DNA of 64,000 bases from Caenorhabditis elegans. Its lineage: Eukaryota > Nematoda > Chromadorea > Rhabditida > Rhabditidae. A program made the position numbers and the translations under genes. The notes beneath the pieces are model-generated. The model was not told the DNA's origin and did no database searches. It was given only the letters and a program-made list of their open reading frames with translations. Positions 2,572 to 58,700 of this stretch are shown here, piece by piece; the stretch's first letter is position 1, and every line of letters begins with the position of its first letter. The stretch covers positions 8,680,001 to 8,744,000 of the forward strand of contig NC_003282.8 of assembly GCF_000002985.6 (NCBI RefSeq), in the 5' to 3' direction.

Positions 2572-5500
2572 CTACTGATCATCAAGTTCGGAAACTGGGA
2601 TTTGTGAAGCTTCCACGCGATTCTGACAGGGATAATAGACGTGGAAAGTGTAGTTGCTTCGAGAGAATGAACCAGGATTTGAGACAATTGTGTCAGCTCC
2701 AACGACTTTTTCGGTGAAAGTCTCGAAACGATCAGCAGTGATCAGAAGATCGGGAAGTGGATGAAGTGACAAGGAATGAGAGAAATCCGGTAAAACTGGT
2801 GTAATATGTTGAGGAAGTGGACACAAATGCGCCTGAAAATAAAACTATAATTAACAGTTTTCAGATTTTTCATATTTTGAGTGTCCAGTTTCCGAAGACC
2901 CCGAATTTGTAACTTCAAATTTAAATTAATCTTTGGTTCATGGATTCGATTGGTTATTCTTTTCCTATAGGATATGAAGGTCTAAATTTAACCGTGAAAA
3001 TCTAGAACTGTAGCAGAAGAACATGTATTTTAAGAAATTAAATGTTCTTTCGTATTTTCTGAGGATTTAATTGGCTCTCCATAAAAGGAAAAATCAAAAA
3101 TACTTCCATAGAGCCCACGTGATCAAAAATTATGAAAACAATGGGTACAAGGACATGTGGAATTTGCATCAGAGTCTCAAACATCGTCAAATCAAAAACT
3201 AAAATTGAAATAAAAAACTCGTGTGATTTCTTGTCTACAATTCAAAACACAAAATCAGACAAACTTTCAATTATAACGCTGAAGTCTGAAGCCTGTTGGA
3301 AATTTATTATTTTTTCTTTAAAAAAAAAGAGCGATAATTTTATTCTGTGGTTTTCGCTTTGAATAATTTGAAGTTTTTAAAGTGCTCACTAAAAACCAAA
3401 AATACCTTCTTTTTTTAAAGTTTTTTATTGAAAAATTTTAATTTCAATTTAACTTAATTATTTAACTTTTCAGCCCAATTCAATTACATTTTCTGAATTT
3501 TTTTAACATACTGAAAAGCGGGGTTTTCGAAAATTTGCAATTTTTGTTCGAATTGATCTTAGTTTTTATTTTTACATTTCATAGATCCAGATTGGCAGGT
3601 TCAAAATAAAATATATAAATTTTATAATTTCAGATGCAAAAAAAAATCTATTTTCAGCTCATTAGAAGAAGTTTATCGCTTATTTTCAGGTGTTTTTGAG
3701 CCGGTTCCAGTTCCCACTAAAACTGCTACGTGATTTTTTTCCAGCATGGACAGAAAAACAAATATAGTATTTAGGAGAAGATATATTTCGTAGTAAGATC
3801 AGGTGAATTTCGTTTAGTTATTCAAAACGTTGACTGAACTTATTGGAAATACGAGAAAGTTCAATGCTTCAAATCATGAAACTTCAAAATTTCTACGTTT
3901 CTGTATCAGGGGTTGCCGAGTTGAAAAAAAATCCAGAATGAAAAATCAAAATCTACAGAATTTAGTAGTTTTTTTTAATTACACAAATTTTCATCAAATT
4001 CATTTTACCAACCTGGCTCAACACACTTCTTGCATATCTCGATGGGATGGATTCGACAGTGATACTATTGATTGAATGTCTGAAATTAAGTAATTTCAAA
4101 ATTATTTAGTTTTAAGGATTATGCCAAAATTTCTTCTCGGAAAATTCTCATTTTTAGGAAATTATAACTTCTATGTTTGTTTATTCTCATTTTTTATTAT
4201 TATGAAATAAATAAAAATTCAGATATTCTGTTGTTGTTTCTCATATTTTTTAACCGATCTCTTTAGATTCCAACGTCATCACATCTGTATTTTGTCTAGT
4301 TCATTAGTGTCTAGCTCAATAAATAATAATCAGTTCATTGCTCCAATTATCATCTCAGCTGTCATTTTTTGTACTGCCGTACTAATTTCAACAGACAAAA
4401 TAGCGTATTGATGATGAGATTTCCAGACTGAAAAGCTTAAATTCACCTGCACGTTTTTTTGATCAAATCACTTCGGAAGACAACAATCTCCTGGCTTGCG
4501 AATTGAATTCGACACGGATTCGAAGCAAATGTACACGAGATAATTGGGGAAATATGCTTGAAGAGAAGAGATGGAAGATGTGGACGAGGAAGTACCTGAA
4601 AATTCCAAAAAATAGAAACGCAAATGATAGTATGATAGTAGTTTGATAAAAACTATATTCCGGCTGCTGTGACAACGAAAAGTCGGCGAAATTTCCGATT
4701 TTGGCAAAATTGTGTTTTTTTTTTTGAAATTTTTGGAAAAGAACATTTTTGAATATATTTTACCGTGTCAACAAATGGATCATCAGGTCCTGGTACAAAG
4801 ATAAACTGTGTTTTTTCATAATCCTTTCTGAGTGGTGTCAATTGATTAGCCAACCACCTGAATCCACGATCCAGTAAATCAATTGTATCAGTTTGTCTGG
4901 GTCTTGAGCAAAAATTTCCACAAAAAACAATTGCAACTGGAGGTTGATCTTTGTATCCTTGTAGCAATTTGAATACTGCTTTCATAACCTGGAAAACATA
5001 TAAATTAGACTGGTTTTTGAACTGAAAATTATTCTTTTCTAGTTTATTGGGGAAAAATATTTTTTTCGGAAAAAACCTAAACTGAGAATTTTCTTCAGAG
5101 TTTCTAAGAATAGACTATCGAAATTATAAATAGAGTTCAGTTAATTCAAAATATTTAGGTTTTTTAAAAATAGTGATTCAAACTTTTAAAAAAATTGTTT
5201 TTTGTTTATTAGTTTTTTTCGTTATTCGTTTTCAAAAAAAAAAGTTTTCGGATTACCTTTTTATCATCCAAAAAAACATCGGAAAGGAAGACAAGGGAAG
5301 TATCTTCCTGCTTAGCCAGAGCTGATCGTAGGCGATCACTGCACCGGAATGCGATCTGAAATCAGTTTTTTTTCAAAAAGAAGTATACTTTAAATTATTT
5401 CCATACCTTATCATCTCCTCCAAACCAATTCTCATTCGAACTCAACTCTTTTCTCGTAACTTCTGCTGATTCTACAGGTACCATTGCAACTTCATTCACT

Positions 5501-50826: not shown

Positions 50827-53800
50827 ATGAGGGCTCTTTTAACAGTAATTTCTATATTTTGTTCTTTATTCTCTGTAACTGATGGATATTCGAAATACTC
50901 AAAACCTTTAGAGATAATGAAACCAGACTCGGTAAGATTTAGATAATAGATTGAGATATTGTAGTTCCTTAGTTCTCTGAAACGTGTACTTAAAGACGCA
51001 TGGATTTATTCGAGTGGGTCTCGCCGCGAAATATAGGTTTACGGTAGCCTTTACTTTTTGTGATATTCAGAATTGAAGAAGCTGTAAACCTATGTAACAT
51101 AAATTACTCACGAAATCACCGCCATAAATACAAAAAGTTTTGCGAGAAAATTTTCCTCGTGGCGAAACCCATAAATCCGTTTATCTTATGTACGCAATTC
51201 AGAAAATTCAAACTATGATATAAATCAAGACAATAAAACCTTTAACCGTGAACCAATGATTTTCAGAACGGTGTCTATGCATATGATATGAAAATTAGTA
51301 AGAAATTAACAATGGCCTACAAGAATGATAATCCGGCAAAGCACGCAACTCCAGTCGACTATGATTATAAAACTGTAAGTTTGGGAATTTAATTTCCAAA
51401 GATTTGGTCTGGAATGTTCACATGGAGTTTTTTTTAATCAGTTCTTGAACCATTTTTTACTCACTGCTGGAGGTGTTTTTTGAAGATAAACTGTACTATT
51501 TACCATTCAGTATATAAATACGAAACTATTATAAATTCTAGATTTCTTTTTGTTTTTACTATTTTAATATTCAGCAAACATGGTCAAAACGTGAGCCGAA
51601 TCAACTGATGGATTGTTTCCAAAACTATTCATTTAACCATATTTCGGATCCAGGAGATGCAAATAGAATGGAAGATGTTTTGGTGGTTGATGGATTGCAT
51701 AAACGAGTTATATCGATTAACGGAGATATGTGAGTACTACATATTCTAGTATTCTAGACACTGAAATACATAACTCTTTCAGGCCTGGAGCACCAGTTGT
51801 AGTTCCATACATGTCAGAAGTATGGATTCGTGTCTCTAATCAGATCCTTATGGATTCAATGACAATTCATGTTCATGGTATTGACAAACATGGAATGTGG
51901 TACATGGATGGAGTTGCTTTTGTTCAACAATGTCCAATTCAAAGTACAAATAAATTTGAGTATAGATTTATTGCTGATAACAAGGGAACTCATTGGTATC
52001 ACGGACATATGCAAACTGATAGAGGAGATGGAATTGCTGGAGGTTAGTTCAAGTTAAGTATAGGATTAGAGTACAATAATTTGAGAGAATCAATGATCAG
52101 GTCTTTATTTTTTATCAATGTTTACTTTTGAAAGTAATTTTTTTAATAGTTTCGCACCCTATTGTCACATTTTGATTGTTCAGGATTCATTGTTGTTGAT
52201 CAGAATGATACATCAGTTCCAACATTGGATGATCGGAAGCGAATTGTTCCAAGCCGTGAATACTTCTTTTTGTTGCAGGTAGCCACATGTTTTTCTCCAA
52301 ACTCCCACAACCATGATTTTCAGGATTGGGCGACAAAAGTTGGAGAAGAAGCTTGGATGCAATTGGAAGATAAAACTATGAAATGGATGTATGGATATGA
52401 TGACTTTACAAAATGTTGGGAGCCAACTAGAACTTCCGATGGAGGTCAGTGGCTTCAAACTGAAAAGTTCTGAAACTTAATAATTCTTTGGAAATTTAAC
52501 CTGACTCGTGCATAACTATCCGGAGTTATTTGAAAATTCCAAAAAAAACTTACGATGAAGAAAAGCCAGTCAACGTTTTGGTATATTGCCAAGTTTTCTA
52601 AGACACTTTGTTTAATGCCTAAAAGTTGATTCGTTTTTTGTCAACTTCTAAAATTATGATAGGTGCAGACTGAGTTATTGCCACTTTTGTATAAAATATA
52701 TAATTGAAATCTACACGGTTCAAATACAACCACAAGTTGTGAGATAATAGTCGGATATGTGCATTCTTCTCATGGAAGTTTTACATTTGTGTAATTATAT
52801 ATTTAGGAAATGTCGGAGGAGCTGTACCAATTTCTGCAATTCTTTTGAACGACAAGGGATGGTATGATCATGACATTATCAAATCTCAACCATTCAATCT
52901 TCCACTTGAAAGATTCCAAATTAAGCCAAGTAAGTCTATGAGTCTATTTAACTAACAAATAATTTGAAATGTCAGACGAGGATATTCTTTTCCGTATTGT
53001 AAACGGAGGAGTTGCTCAAGAGCTTATGCTATATGTTGAAGGGCATCCAATGACTGTAGTTGCAGCTGATGGTGATGAGGTTGTTCCGATGAAGGTAGGA
53101 ACCCATTCATTTGAAGCATAATCTATTCTCTCATTTCAGGTTGATCGTCTCATCGTTTTCCCAGGAGAAAGATATGACATTTTGATTAAAGGATTGGCAA
53201 CACCCACCAAAAAAAGCTACCGTATCCAAGTAGAGACAGTTCAAAAATATTTCTTTGATTGGAAAGAGATTCCAATTGTTTATGGATTTGGTTATATTGA
53301 ATATGAAACTGATGGACTCCCCGAGGATAAGACTACACGTAAGTAGAGAAAAACAGTAATTTAAAAACAACAATTCCTTTCAGCCAACCTGATGCACCCA
53401 GAATGTACACAAAACAAGAAATGTACCGTTTTGAACTGTCCATTCCAAGAATGGATGGCTCAACCAAACTTCACATGTATCTCATATGATAAGTTGGAAA
53501 ATCCAAATCCAGAAAAAATCGAGGCCGAGATTCTTCAAGCAACACAATTTAATGGAGGATTCGAGGTGGGATTTTGTTTATTATAGAAATAGGGTTGGAG
53601 TGGCAAAGCAGACGTCTGGTTTTCCAAAATCATTGGAAGAAAAGAATCATAAAAGTTTATTACACTTGAAAAATGTTAAACACCTGTTTTTGATAAGCAG
53701 GCGCATTTTCAGGAAGGTAAGTATATAATGAATGCAATGGGGGAAGGCAACCACGAGATGTCTCTTTCCTATCTGTTTCTTAATGCCTACATGCCTGCCT

Positions 53801-55605
53801 ATCTGACTTTTCTAGGCCATCTTTTGTTTTAATAATCACGAGCCCACTTTTTGCAGGAGCATTTTATCAACATGCACCATGACTCTCAAATGGATCAATT
53901 CTTATTCCAATTCCCATGGGGTATTCCATATTATCATGATGGTGACATGGAAACTATTTCAACGGTGAGTTAGGGTCGACGGGAGAAAATATCCATTTTA
54001 TATTATTTACAGTCGTGCAGTCAAACTGCTTGTGCCAACAACTCAATGTCAGATCTCGATACAACATGTCGTTGTTTCTATCATTTGGAGCATAAATTAA
54101 ATAATATTGTGCAAATAACCCTTTATAATATGGGACTTGGTGGTGCAATGGGAACTGGTTATGCTCATCCATTCCATCTTCATGGACATCATTTTTATGT
54201 GATGAAAGTTGGATGGCCATCGTATAATGGATCTGGATTTATTGATCAAATGAATCAAGATATTGATTGTCCTGGACGAGATGTTAGTTGTAATGGAAAG
54301 AAATGGAGAAATAAAGATTGGTTAGGTGGAGCATTAGAAGCAATGAATACTAAGAATCCAACGAAAAGAGATACTATTACATTGCCAGTTGGAGGATATA
54401 TCACTATTCGGTAGGTTTTTGTTGTGTATTGAGCGAAAGACAAGGAGAGAAGTAGTTTATTACAAGAAGTGTAAGAAGTAATGAATTATAAAGAGAGGTC
54501 GCTTACGCGATAAGTTCATGATGACCCAAAGGTCACGTCTGTATAAAGTTCAGGTTTACGTTCCGTCCACAACATCTCCCCTCTTATATGACAAAAAGCC
54601 AGAAATGCCTGGGCTAGGGGCATCACGACCAGAGGCGGTATATCGACCTCTGCGGCGAGTGGAGGCATGATCAGTGTTTGGGGCTGATCCTCGCACAACT
54701 TGTCCCCCTCCCCATCTCATCCTGATCGCCACTGTTGTGTATTGAGCGAAAGACAAGGAGAGAAGTAGTTTATTACAAGAAGTGTAAGAAGTAATGAATT
54801 ATAAAGAGAGGTCGCTTACGCGATAAGTTCATGATGACCCAAAGGCCACGTCTGTATAAAGTTCAGGTTTACGTTCCGTCCACAACAGTTTTCGAATCGT
54901 TGTTTTTTTAAAACATTTTTTAATTCATGGAGCACGTGAGAACCCATTGTTAGGAACACAATCTTTTGAGAACTACAGTAACCAATTTTTTGAAACATTT
55001 TTATACCCATTTCCACTTTTTTCTCTCACTCACCCGGCAAACTATCTGTTTGTCTCGACATATTTTTGAGTGTGAAAAACAATGTAAAATCGAGGAAAAG
55101 TGTATACTGTAGTTCTTAAAGGCGCACCTAGTTTTGTGCAATCTCGAGTTGAACATTTTTCTTTCGTGATGAAACCATCCACCGTATTTTTTGCGAAACG
55201 ATCTCAAAATTTTTACTATTAAAGTTTAAGGATAAGAATTAACACTCTCTTATATTTTTAATACTCATTCAAGAAACAAATTAATAATTTCAGATTCCGT
55301 GCTGTAAATCCAGGATGGTGGTTTGCTCATTGTCACTTGGAACTTCATTTAATGGGTGGAACTGGATATGCATATAAGGTAAAATACACTTAATATCAGT
55401 ATCAGTGCAATTTCTAACTGTTCTATTTTAGGTTGGTGATCAAAATCAAATCTACATGCCACCTGACAATTTCCCGCATGATTGTGGTGTCTTCAAAGTT
55501 GATAAATTACCAGAATTAAGGCTTCCAACTCAAAAATCTTCGAATATCCCATACACTTTCATTGCTGTGTGCCTAGTTCTTATTATTGATAGAATATTTC
55601 ACTGA
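50827..55605 (+). CDS. membrane-anchored multicopper oxidase
   Basis: Laccase/ferroxidase-like blue copper oxidase, probably extracellular. Fourteen exons: 50827-50931, 51267-51374, 51575-51729, 51783-52042, 52184-52278, 52324-52444, 52807-52929, 52976-53094, 53140-53338, 53384-53565, 53857-53964, 54013-54410, 55294-55378, 55432-55605, for 743 residues. A signal peptide (MRALLTVISIFCSLFSVTDG) is followed by three cupredoxin domains. All four copper-binding clusters are present: TIHVHGI, HWYHGHMQT, HPFHLHGHHF and HCHLELH. The C-terminus (about 722-740, YTFIAVCLVLIIDRIF) is a hydrophobic tail fitting a GPI signal or membrane anchor. The residue at the type 1 axial position after HCH appears to be Thr rather than Leu or Met. 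An LTR retroelement sits 9 bp downstream of the donor of exon 12, in an 883-bp intron. GATA-like sites upstream hint at gut expression. Substrate is unknown; iron, copper or phenols are possible. Confidence 0.93.
50991..51188. repeat. imperfect inverted repeat in oxidase intron 1
   Basis: The outer arms (taaagacgcatggatttatt at the left; ataaatccgtttatctta at the right) and the inner arms (ataggtttac ... gtaaacctat) are reverse complements with mismatches, making a nested foldback of about 200 bp. The left arm resembles blocks at 39330 and 39715, so it is a dispersed worm repeat. Confidence 0.6.
54420..54887 (-). mobile_element. TRIM-like non-autonomous LTR retrotransposon
   Basis: Two 155-bp direct repeats, 54420-54574 and 54733-54887, each beginning TGTTG and ending CAACA, differ at a single base (ggTcacg against ggCcacg). 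They flank a 158-bp non-coding interior. The whole is bounded by an exact 5-bp duplication GTTTT (54415-54419 and 54888-54892), the target size for LTR elements. Read on the minus strand, the interior begins one base past the 5' LTR with TGGCGATCAGGATGAG, a plausible tRNA primer-binding site (TGG start). It ends with the purine-rich AAGAGGGGAGA directly before the 3' LTR, a polypurine tract. No gag or pol sequence is present. It lies in the oxidase intron 9 bp after the splice donor. Confidence 0.9.
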
Positions 55606-55799
55606 TAATTGATAATTTTGATGATTAGAATTTGAACTTTACTCAGCTTGATGTCATATTGATATTAATAAATGAACGTGTGCCTGAAAAAAGTGGAAAG
55701 TGAATGAGATTTATTGCACAAGTTGAACAACAAAATTAAAACTCAGATTTTTGGAATGTGTAAGTATATATTTAACATTTAATTAATTTCAAATTGGAA

Positions 55800-58700
55800 T
55801 CACTCGATCAAATACATCTTGTAAAGTTTTTCGTGTTCTTCCACTTCGAATTTCGGGCGGAAATTAACTTTCACAATCTGTGAAAATCCCTCGGACAGTG
55901 TTGGTTCAACATATTTTCCTTTATGAATTCTTAATACCATTGACGAGATTTCAGCTGCATTATCATCTGTTAACACTCGGAATCGAATATTGTGCTGTGC
56001 GTGTTCCATACTACAATTCATCTCGAAACATCGAATGGGCACTCCGAGCTCTTTTGCCACGTCAATATATCGCTTTCGTGATTCTAGATCCGGTGATGTG
56101 TTATCAATAACTACAGATTTTCCATCAGCAAGATATGAACGAGTGGCTGCTACACACTTTTGCCATGTTCCGATCGTGTCACGATTCACAATATGAATCA
56201 AAAATTTTTGAGTTGAAAAATGCTCCAAAACTTACTTTATAATCATGTTGATGACCGAGCATTTTAGCAAAAGTCGACTTTCCTGAACCGGGAAATCCAA
56301 CCATTAGAATAATTTCTTTTTCGGATGATTTAAGTTGAGCATCTGAAAATATAATTATATTTATGTTTTCTCATAATTTTATTTCACCATGAGGTTCAAG
56401 TTCAGTAATTTCCTCTGAAAATAGATTTTTTGGATCAAAGTTTGGTGGTCCCCAGGGCTCATCAACTTTCGATTTTCCGAAAAATTCTTCTGGAGTTTGA
56501 AATTTAACACCGACATTTGCAGCAAAGAAACGATCTGCGTATGAGTGATCTTTTTTAGGACGACTCTATAAAATTAGAATTAAATGAAAGTTGAATCTAT
56601 TCACACGTACTGTAGTCTTGATTCTTCCAGCAGCATCTCCAACAAAAATGCTTTCTTTTTCATTAATTTCCACTTCATCATTTCTCAATTTCAGCTCATT
56701 CCACATACCAACACATGGTTTTCTATAGTGTCCCCCAGCAACTGAAACAAATGCTTGAACAGGTATTCCAAGTTTTCCAACAATTGCTTCAATTTTCTTC
56801 CTAAATTCATTTCGATCAACTTTTCCAGCGTGGATGCCTTTTTGATTTGTGAAAATGACAATTTTGAATCCGTCGGAATGCAATTTTTTGAAATCTGATG
56901 GAATTGAGTCATATAGAAGTTGCCAATCTTGACAATTTGTTGGAAACACTTTTCCAGACTTTGTTTTGATCAGAGTTCCGTCTGAAAATACGATTTTTTT
57001 AAACAAAAATATTTTTTTCATACACTAGAAAGTTTAGAACAACTCATAAATTTAACCTTTTTCAGGTTTTCATCTATTATTGTTGTGGAGATCGACAAAA
57101 AATAGTTGTAGGGGTTCGAATCTACAGTAATTTTAGGGATTTCCACAAAAATTTGGCAATTTACCAAAAAAAAAATTGATTAGTATTACATTTTTATTAA
57201 TTTGTGCAAACTACTTAATTTGAAGAAAATCAAATGGAAATTACATCACAATTTTAGGTTCAAGGGATAAATGTACCGAGCCAGAGGCTCACTGCTTGAA
57301 TAGTCTCAGTAAGGCCAAGTTTCTTGATACTAATTTCATATTTCGTGAAAATTATCAATTCTGCGCCAAAAATATGTGTTTTCTTTTGATAGAAGACGTG
57401 AGTTTTCCCACTCATCAACAACAAGAAAATCAAAAAATATATCCATACACCACTCAGTATTTCTAGTCGTCTGTGTTCTCTAATTGTAGGTCACAGCCTC
57501 CCTCCATTAGACAGGCATAGTATGTTTGTCTGTGTCTCTTCATCTTCATACACACTCTGAATGTTTGTCTGTTGTCTCTTGAAGTGTGGACACCCTCTAT
57601 TAAAACGGCACTCCCTTCTTCTTGACGTTAGAATTCATTGATTTTTTTCTATTTATTTATTTTATCTTTTCTAAAGATGCAAATGTAAATATTACACAGA
57701 TGCGAAATTTTGTGATTTTCAACGCAAAAATACGATACTCGGTCTTGACACTGCGGAATAAGTTTATATGAAAAAAAGTGCACCTTTAAAAAGTACAGTA
57801 ACCTCTACGAGTCACTGTTCTGACTTATTCATCTTCGACTTTTTTCCTGAATTTTGCATAAAATTTTAGTATTTTTTGATTTGTCTCACAAAAAACAATT
57901 TTTTTTTGGGAAAAATGTGAAAATCGGAAAATCAAACCAATGAGGCAGGGAGATTACTGTACTTTTTAAAGGATATTCGGTCGTGCCAAGACCTAGTATC
58001 GCATTTTTGCGTAGGAAATCGCAAAATTTCGAATCTGAGTAATACTATTCTAACCGAAATGTAGAATTCTCAGCTTTAAACTTCAGAAATGACTGAAATC
58101 TCTCCTAAAATACTTGAAACTTCATCCGAGCCACCACCAAAAAAGAAGCGTGCCAATTTTACACTCGAATTCAAAAATGAAGTTATTCGATTTGCTGAAC
58201 AAACAAATAATTGTCAAGCTCAGAAGAAATATGGAGTTGCAAGAGCTTGTATTCAACGATGGAGACATTTGAAGGTATTTCTGAACTACAGTAGTTCTAT
58301 CAACAAATTTCTGGAATTTCAGCACGAATTAGCATTCGAATCAGAAGGAAAACAAGGAGCAAAGAGGCTCGGTGGAGCAGGAAGACCGCTAAAGAATGTG
58401 GAATTAGATGAGAAAGTTGAAGATTGGATTGCTTCGAAAAACGGGAAAATTTCGGGAAAAGATATCAAGGAATATGCGAAGAAAATTAATGGAAATGCAG
58501 ACTTTAAGGTTTGAAACATTTAAACTCGAATTTCGAATAAAATATTTTCTAGGCAAGTAATGGTTGGCTTCAAAGATTTATGATTCGACACGGATTGATA
58601 AAAGCAAGAAGTTCAAGCCCAAAAACGCCATCAACTAGTGATGGCACAACAGACAAAACGCTTGAAGAATCACTTTTTGAACTAATTAACAGTGATGAAT

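Follow-up and report, generated by a model that had tools for sequence, protein, structure and literature searches.

Among described miniature LTR elements, a near counterpart of the element analyzed here is the rice TRIM OsajRetroS10, which, according to the available text of the report, spans 408 bp, has short LTRs, is non-coding, and is an internal deletion of a larger LTR element (Gao et al. 2016, PMC4717578). Its breakpoint is placed there just after a 25-bp stretch, CGATCCTA(C/T)AA(G/T)TGGTATCAGAGCC, of which a near-identical second copy lies past the breakpoint in the parent. The same accessible text calls the origin of TRIMs ambiguous, mentions unpublished nematode TRIMs, and describes the duplicated sequence with no link drawn to a primer-binding site (PBS) or to strand transfer (PMC4717578). 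Plus-strand strong-stop DNA of the tRNA-primed Ty1 and Ty3 is described as copying 12 nt of the tRNA, and the yeast tRNA copy is reported, in the sections available, not to be inherited (PMC5371799), whereas here an 18-nt copy is present in the genome, at aberrant sites only. In HIV, m1A58 halts plus-strand synthesis, and m1A58 has been reported in primer tRNAs including tRNA-Ser, as far as the accessible portion of that source extends (PMC13191261). Like the group examined here, the Cer elements of C. elegans form low-copy LTR retrotransposon families; Cer1 is reported in the available pages to match tRNA-Pro (PMC3315495), in contrast to tRNA-Ser(GCU) for the present group. A literature search over titles and abstract openings, with subscription papers mostly outside it, found no natural mini-LTR element tied to misplaced plus-strand transfer, a gap that is weak evidence of novelty. 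By its title, a 1991 study of Pulsinelli and Temin reportedly connects strand-transfer errors with large deletions in a single round in retroviral vectors, an experimental setting as compared to the natural retrotransposon considered here.

The window (the whole stretch of DNA analyzed, 64,000 nt, to which positions refer) contains a 468-bp LTR retroelement that is complete and lies on the minus strand, antisense within an intron of a multicopper oxidase gene. Its features are as follows, with L009, L013, and L014 denoting longer copies that carry the same LTRs.

54411..54419, plus strand: opening nine bases of the oxidase intron, GTAGGTTTT, read from the sequence, with the donor intact ahead of the insertion and flanking exons matching Cu-oxidase_2
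54415..54419, no strand: left copy of the target-site duplication GTTTT, read from the sequence
54420..54574, minus strand: 3′ LTR, 155 nt, one mismatch to the other LTR
54575..54585, minus strand: polypurine tract (PPT) AAGAGGGGAGA, abutting the 3′ LTR; the same in L009 and L014, with a neighboring base differing in L013
54575..54704, minus strand: retained 3′ internal remnant of 130 nt, corresponding to the end of the parent internal region, collinear with L014 from element position 2392
54705..54713, minus strand: filler GGGGAGGGG, which together with the preceding T matches L009 and L014 (L014 position about 2015-2016)
54714..54719, minus strand: TGAGAT, coded by tRNA-Ser(GCU) and not at this place in the longer copies, ending one base before A58
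54720..54731, minus strand: PBS core TGGCGATCAGGA, common to the parents and to pol-bearing relatives
54733..54887, minus strand: 5′ LTR, 155 nt, with a private base at 54846
54888..54892, no strand: right copy of the target-site duplication GTTTT, read from the sequence

Near-identical direct LTRs, each with TG at the start and CA at the end, are thus combined with a 5-bp duplication, a tRNA-matched PBS (the 5′ LTR being followed on the minus strand by a single G and then TGGCGATCAGGATGAGAT) and a PPT, the hallmarks of an LTR retrotransposon, and all of these had been recognized correctly in the initial annotation. The one LTR mismatch is T at 54533 versus C at 54846, and the latter base, private to the 5′ LTR of the window element among 20 LTRs compared, reflects either a subsequent mutation or an error in copying. 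A recent insertion, as previously suggested, is plausible with this single LTR difference. The placement 9 bp past a splice donor in an oxidase intron was likewise borne out: exon stretches on both sides of the intron match Cu-oxidase_2, the donor GT lies at 54411, and the acceptor AG ends at 55293. A tandem or satellite reading of the 155-nt units was rejected, as no tandem array was found within 53500-56000.

Family size had been left by the initial annotation to a genome-wide similarity search, which, over 100,286,401 bases in seven contigs, returned at least 38 matches to the 468-bp query; with these matches and LTRs one mismatch apart, a chance 155-nt repeat was also rejected. The longer copies with the same LTRs measure 2.7 kb (L009 and L014) and 3.8 kb (L013). 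Every one of the seven multi-LTR family copies examined has a 5-bp duplication, and of the 19 examined copies and fragments 14 do (the exceptions being L010, L017, L021, L022, and L024), so that neither of the findings that were to count against a retroelement, a tandem arrangement or a lack of other copies with 5-bp duplications, was encountered. An 807-codon open frame in L014 corresponds to gag (DUF7083), a zinc knuckle, and an aspartic protease, and the open frames of the window family (2.7-kb copies) gave no match to RT or integrase. Compared with relatives, the 2.7-kb copies skip ∼2.4 kb between the protease and the 3′ end; one relative is matched at gag-protease (C1:3847548-3849008) and then ∼2.4 kb onward near its 3′ end (C1:3851436-3851639), and the 2.7-kb parent is therefore itself a non-autonomous deletion form. 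In the relative L042, two pieces match RVT_1, RNase H, and rve, the LTRs show no difference over 211 nt, and the PBS core TGGCGATCAGGA is the same. The gag-protease match of L042 is 47% identical and holds four TGA, and activity of this copy is therefore not implied. Gag and protease (from the 2.7-kb copies) as well as RT, RNase H, and integrase (from L042) are accordingly encoded among the relatives. As neither RT nor integrase was matched in its open frames and ∼2.4 kb are skipped, the family would need mobilization in trans, as would the window element. Two family members have unusual structures: L013 (C5:5145500-5152000) is ∼1.1 kb longer than other copies and its gag match is split, and L017 (C3:5569000-5572000) is a solo LTR in which 18 nt of one LTR end, TGTTGTGTATTGAGCGAC, occur a further time inside an outer duplication TTAAG.

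Comparison of the PBS to tRNA 3′ ends, also proposed at the outset, yielded a match to tRNA-Ser(GCU). A genome-wide count gave 17 occurrences of the 15-mer ATCTCATCCTGATCG, as compared to zero of a reversed control. Seven of the 17 lie in intact tRNA-Ser genes (anticodon GCT), three resemble tRNA fragments, and the remaining seven are PBS sites of LTR elements in which CCA follows the 15-mer; since the same word thus lies in seven intact tRNA genes and in seven PBS sites with CCA, the PBS is complementary to the 3′ end of tRNA-Ser(GCU). A Cer1-type tRNA-Pro PBS pattern, tried as a second primer group, matched no site in the genome.

In L009, L013, and L014, the LTR is followed by TGGCGATCAGGA and then ATATCGAAA, i.e., ATATCG comes directly after the PBS core. 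Four short copies exhibit four different junctions, with distant parts of the parent replacing the post-PBS sequence (positions in L014 numbering). The junction in the window element consists of 18 tRNA-matching nt, the filler GGGGAGGGG, and a restart at 2392. L011, with two tandem units, has 13 tRNA-matching nt and restarts at ∼2263; L012 has 13 tRNA-matching nt, a short filler, and a restart at ∼1813; and L015 has ∼10 tRNA-matching nt and a restart at ∼2236. The left breakpoint falls inside the 18-nt tRNA-copiable zone in all four short copies (chance ∼6e-9 under uniform breakpoints), and parental bases directly past the PBS are kept in none of them. The TGAGAT of the window element represents exactly the next tRNA-Ser(GCU) bases beyond the 12-nt PBS, the last of which precedes A58, so that tRNA-coded bases past the native PBS stand at the junction and end just before A58, a presumably modified residue. 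TGAGAT is present elsewhere in the longer copies at approximately the chance rate (position 278 in L009, L013, and L014, plus once more in L013), and the window TGAGAT, taken alone, could possibly have been copied from position 278 of L009 or L014 or from the L013 occurrences. Similarly, L011, L012, and L015, with ∼10-13 tRNA-matching nt, could each, taken alone, have arisen by other template switches. Among the matches listed in the genome, no second copy of the window internal junction was found. In L011 (C5:11606000-11608900), the short elements lie in tandem with the middle LTR common to both and a single CTAAA duplication around the pair.

Regarding the filler of the window element, the 10-mer TGGGGAGGGG (filler plus preceding T) is found in L009 and L014 (L014 position about 2015-2016), is absent from L013, and arises in 2 of 3002 codon-shuffled parents, a figure uncorrected for the choice of this word. 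An equally long 10-nt match, GGAGGGGGAC, spans the filler and the junction and lies in the PPT region of the relative L044. With L013 lacking TGGGGAGGGG and L044 carrying the equally long GGAGGGGGAC, the window filler has more than one candidate source. The L012 filler, GGATCGAG, occurs at 1845 of L014. To judge by these matches, the fillers of the window copy and L012 may be templated, and L014 position about 2015-2016 is a possible first landing site of the window strand. Further tRNA read-through was rejected as a source of filler, as the tRNA match halts at 18 nt.

A pattern search of the genome collected 34 sites with a PBS and an LTR. The tRNA-copy match extends over 11-15 nt at 27 of these sites and over 18 nt at the remaining seven (19 nt in L051), the 18th base of the tRNA copy being the one before A58. 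A family leader directly follows at none of the seven long-tail sites, as compared to 21 of the 27 others (Fisher p = 3e-4, with family-leader status assigned by eye and the L043 leader, seen once, and L088, with a 3-nt insertion, counted as normal). Six of the 27 short-match sites likewise have no known leader (L011 twice, L012, L076, L079, and L082); upon removal of L076 and one L011 unit, leaderless sites amount to 7/7 with long tails versus 4/25 of the others (p = 1e-4). As a control, all recurrent 6-nt tails were compared over 34 distinct contexts, and TGAGAT is the only one leading into unrelated sequence. It is followed by seven different 10-mers, two of which are one-base variants of each other (L048 and L073), while every other recurrent tail enters one leader or, at most, a one-base variant.

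Landing sites are apparent for several of the long-tail copies. L073 and L048 restart at an L042-type site at element position 4446, where the acceptor GATGAGATGTCCC (GATGAGAT) holds the same 8 nt with which the tRNA copy ends and GTGGCG lies just upstream; their deletion junction is common and their LTRs are only ∼82-84% identical. The tail of L070 is followed by ATGGTTCATC, the L042 counterpart of which is GATATGGTTCATC at position 4696, and afterwards L070 exits the element. L067 restarts in the apparent last bases of its own LTR, a stretch with one other match, which is partial. In L050, GA separates the 18-nt tRNA copy from a second PBS, behind which the family leader lies. L051 yielded no landing site. 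Duplications of 5 bp also surround L048, L050, and L073. L050 (C5:16936000-16938200) is a 985-bp element with identical 156-nt LTRs in which the PBS occurs twice, the first copy matching 18 nt of the tRNA. L048 (C1:13144500-13151500) is a mosaic of non-adjacent L042-like pieces between 247-nt repeats and adjoins an array with a 224-bp period. L070 and L051 each consist of a lone LTR and a PBS with an 18-19-nt tRNA match, followed mostly by non-element sequence; no second LTR of either was found nearby among the matches listed (40 of 65 candidates scored in one search). Both may represent strong-stop DNA that was inserted, or else copies that were truncated.

The window element is best seen as the fossil of one failed strand transfer, of which the genome holds several, rather than as part of a family of TRIMs. 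Specifically, and with a probability of roughly 0.83, we consider that it arose by deletion, probably within one cycle, from a non-autonomous LTR retrotransposon family that encodes only gag and protease and uses tRNA-Ser(GCU) as primer. Plus-strand strong-stop DNA would have ended in an 18-nt tRNA copy, halted before a presumed m1A58 of the worm tRNA-Ser(GCU). The parent PBS has only 12 nt, and the final six bases, TGAGAT, would have been left unpaired at the normal site; as an 18-nt copy would not fit a native PBS of 12 nt, the strand would land elsewhere. Its free 3′ end would then have been extended at another place, gaining nine bases rich in G, for which a site near parent position about 2015-2016 is a possible template, before synthesis resumed at parent position 2392 and continued through the PPT and 3′ LTR with a loss of ∼2.2 kb. 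RT and integrase would have been provided by a tRNA-Ser-primed relative, and integrase from this other element would have inserted the 468-bp product, producing the 5-bp duplication. Counting against this reading, the long tail is present at only seven sites.

If the element were instead a true TRIM, mobilized in trans and replicating in miniature form, its deletion would be far older than its insertion. The TRIM-like designation in the initial annotation holds with respect to a retroelement of this size and structure (468 bp, 155-bp LTRs, PBS, PPT, 5-bp duplication, and, per that annotation, no coding capacity), and the deletion junction common to L048 and L073 suggests that a deleted form may sometimes propagate. 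The part of the designation that did not hold is a multi-copy family propagating as a miniature: the window junction is single among the matches listed in this genome, and each other short family copy has its own junction. Even for L048 and L073, LTR identity of only ∼82-84% and 8 nt of tRNA homology make two independent events possible, and we regard a replicating miniature as improbable for the window element. A template switch on the RNA during minus-strand synthesis, from the 3′ region to the PBS, is a still poorer candidate, notwithstanding that it likewise gives internal deletions ending near the PBS; HIV internal deletions are ascribed to such switches in the available part of one report (PMC10986323). 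Post-PBS parental bases should often stay after a switch of this kind, but are seen in none of the four short copies. In addition, minus-strand synthesis copies element RNA, not tRNA, in this polarity and would not add TGAGAT, which in this genome stands at independent junctions and follows the PBS in no parental copy.

Chromosomal deletions can show short fillers and microhomology, which speaks for an ordinary deletion after insertion of a longer copy. However, such an event would leave unexplained why the breakpoints of four copies all fall within the tRNA-copied zone, as well as the tRNA-coded bases, and appears extremely unlikely. Just as implausible is an origin of the 5′ part in another element family whose PBS truly spans 18 nt. 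LTRs are indeed exchanged at the PBS in this genome, and L048 and L073 both carry an 18-nt match, but among the sites collected an 18-nt match is found at no site with a family leader, and the LTRs of the window element are those of the 155-bp family.

Beyond this locus, over-extended plus-strand strong-stop DNA might be a general route by which miniature LTR elements originate, with the failed-transfer tail diagnostic genome-wide and the rice TRIM breakpoint formed by the same route, an extension that we offer tentatively and hold to be conceivable yet somewhat doubtful. If true, a native PBS shorter than the 18-nt tRNA template would leave a mismatched tail that blocks normal transfer and lands elsewhere, the outcomes being TRIM-like deletions and PBS duplications, while normal-length ends would give LTR swaps among primer-sharing families. 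Irrespective of this extension, the tRNA-coded bases at deletion junctions of this natural genome are a readable trace pointing to one reverse-transcription step, and a simple test can be applied to any genome, namely whether foreign sequence follows PBS sites with a tRNA match of exactly 18 nt. Near-identical LTRs on a mini-element, furthermore, need not mean a spreading mini-family. In the rice stretch, TGGTATCAGAGCC is presumably the plant initiator-Met PBS. Insofar as the available description of OsajRetroS10 extends, the duplicated stretch of its parent is what a misplaced plus-strand transfer would use, similar to the window case; OsajRetroS10, in contrast, is a subfamily with reported recent transposition, whereas the window copy is single among the matches listed in this genome.

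The results also indicate that families with the same primer tRNA swap LTRs at the PBS, which offers non-autonomous elements a route to new promoters. Recombination among LTR families is known, e.g., for Athila in the accessible part of its description (PMC2410132). Two chimeras in this genome, c80 (L089 and L080, C4:9876500-9877930) and c81 (L090 and L081, C4:15303050-15304470), have internal regions 98% identical to that of L050 and 3′ LTRs of the L050 group (86.5% and 96%, respectively), fused at the PBS to a 5′ LTR resembling L042 in c80 (92%) and L043 in c81 (91%). This is the product expected from transfer of strong-stop DNA onto the minus strand of another element. As their tRNA match is 13 nt, the chimeras bear on inter-family plus-strand transfer and not on the 18-nt tail. 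The 5-bp duplications flanking c80 and c81 are AAAAT and ATTAC, respectively.
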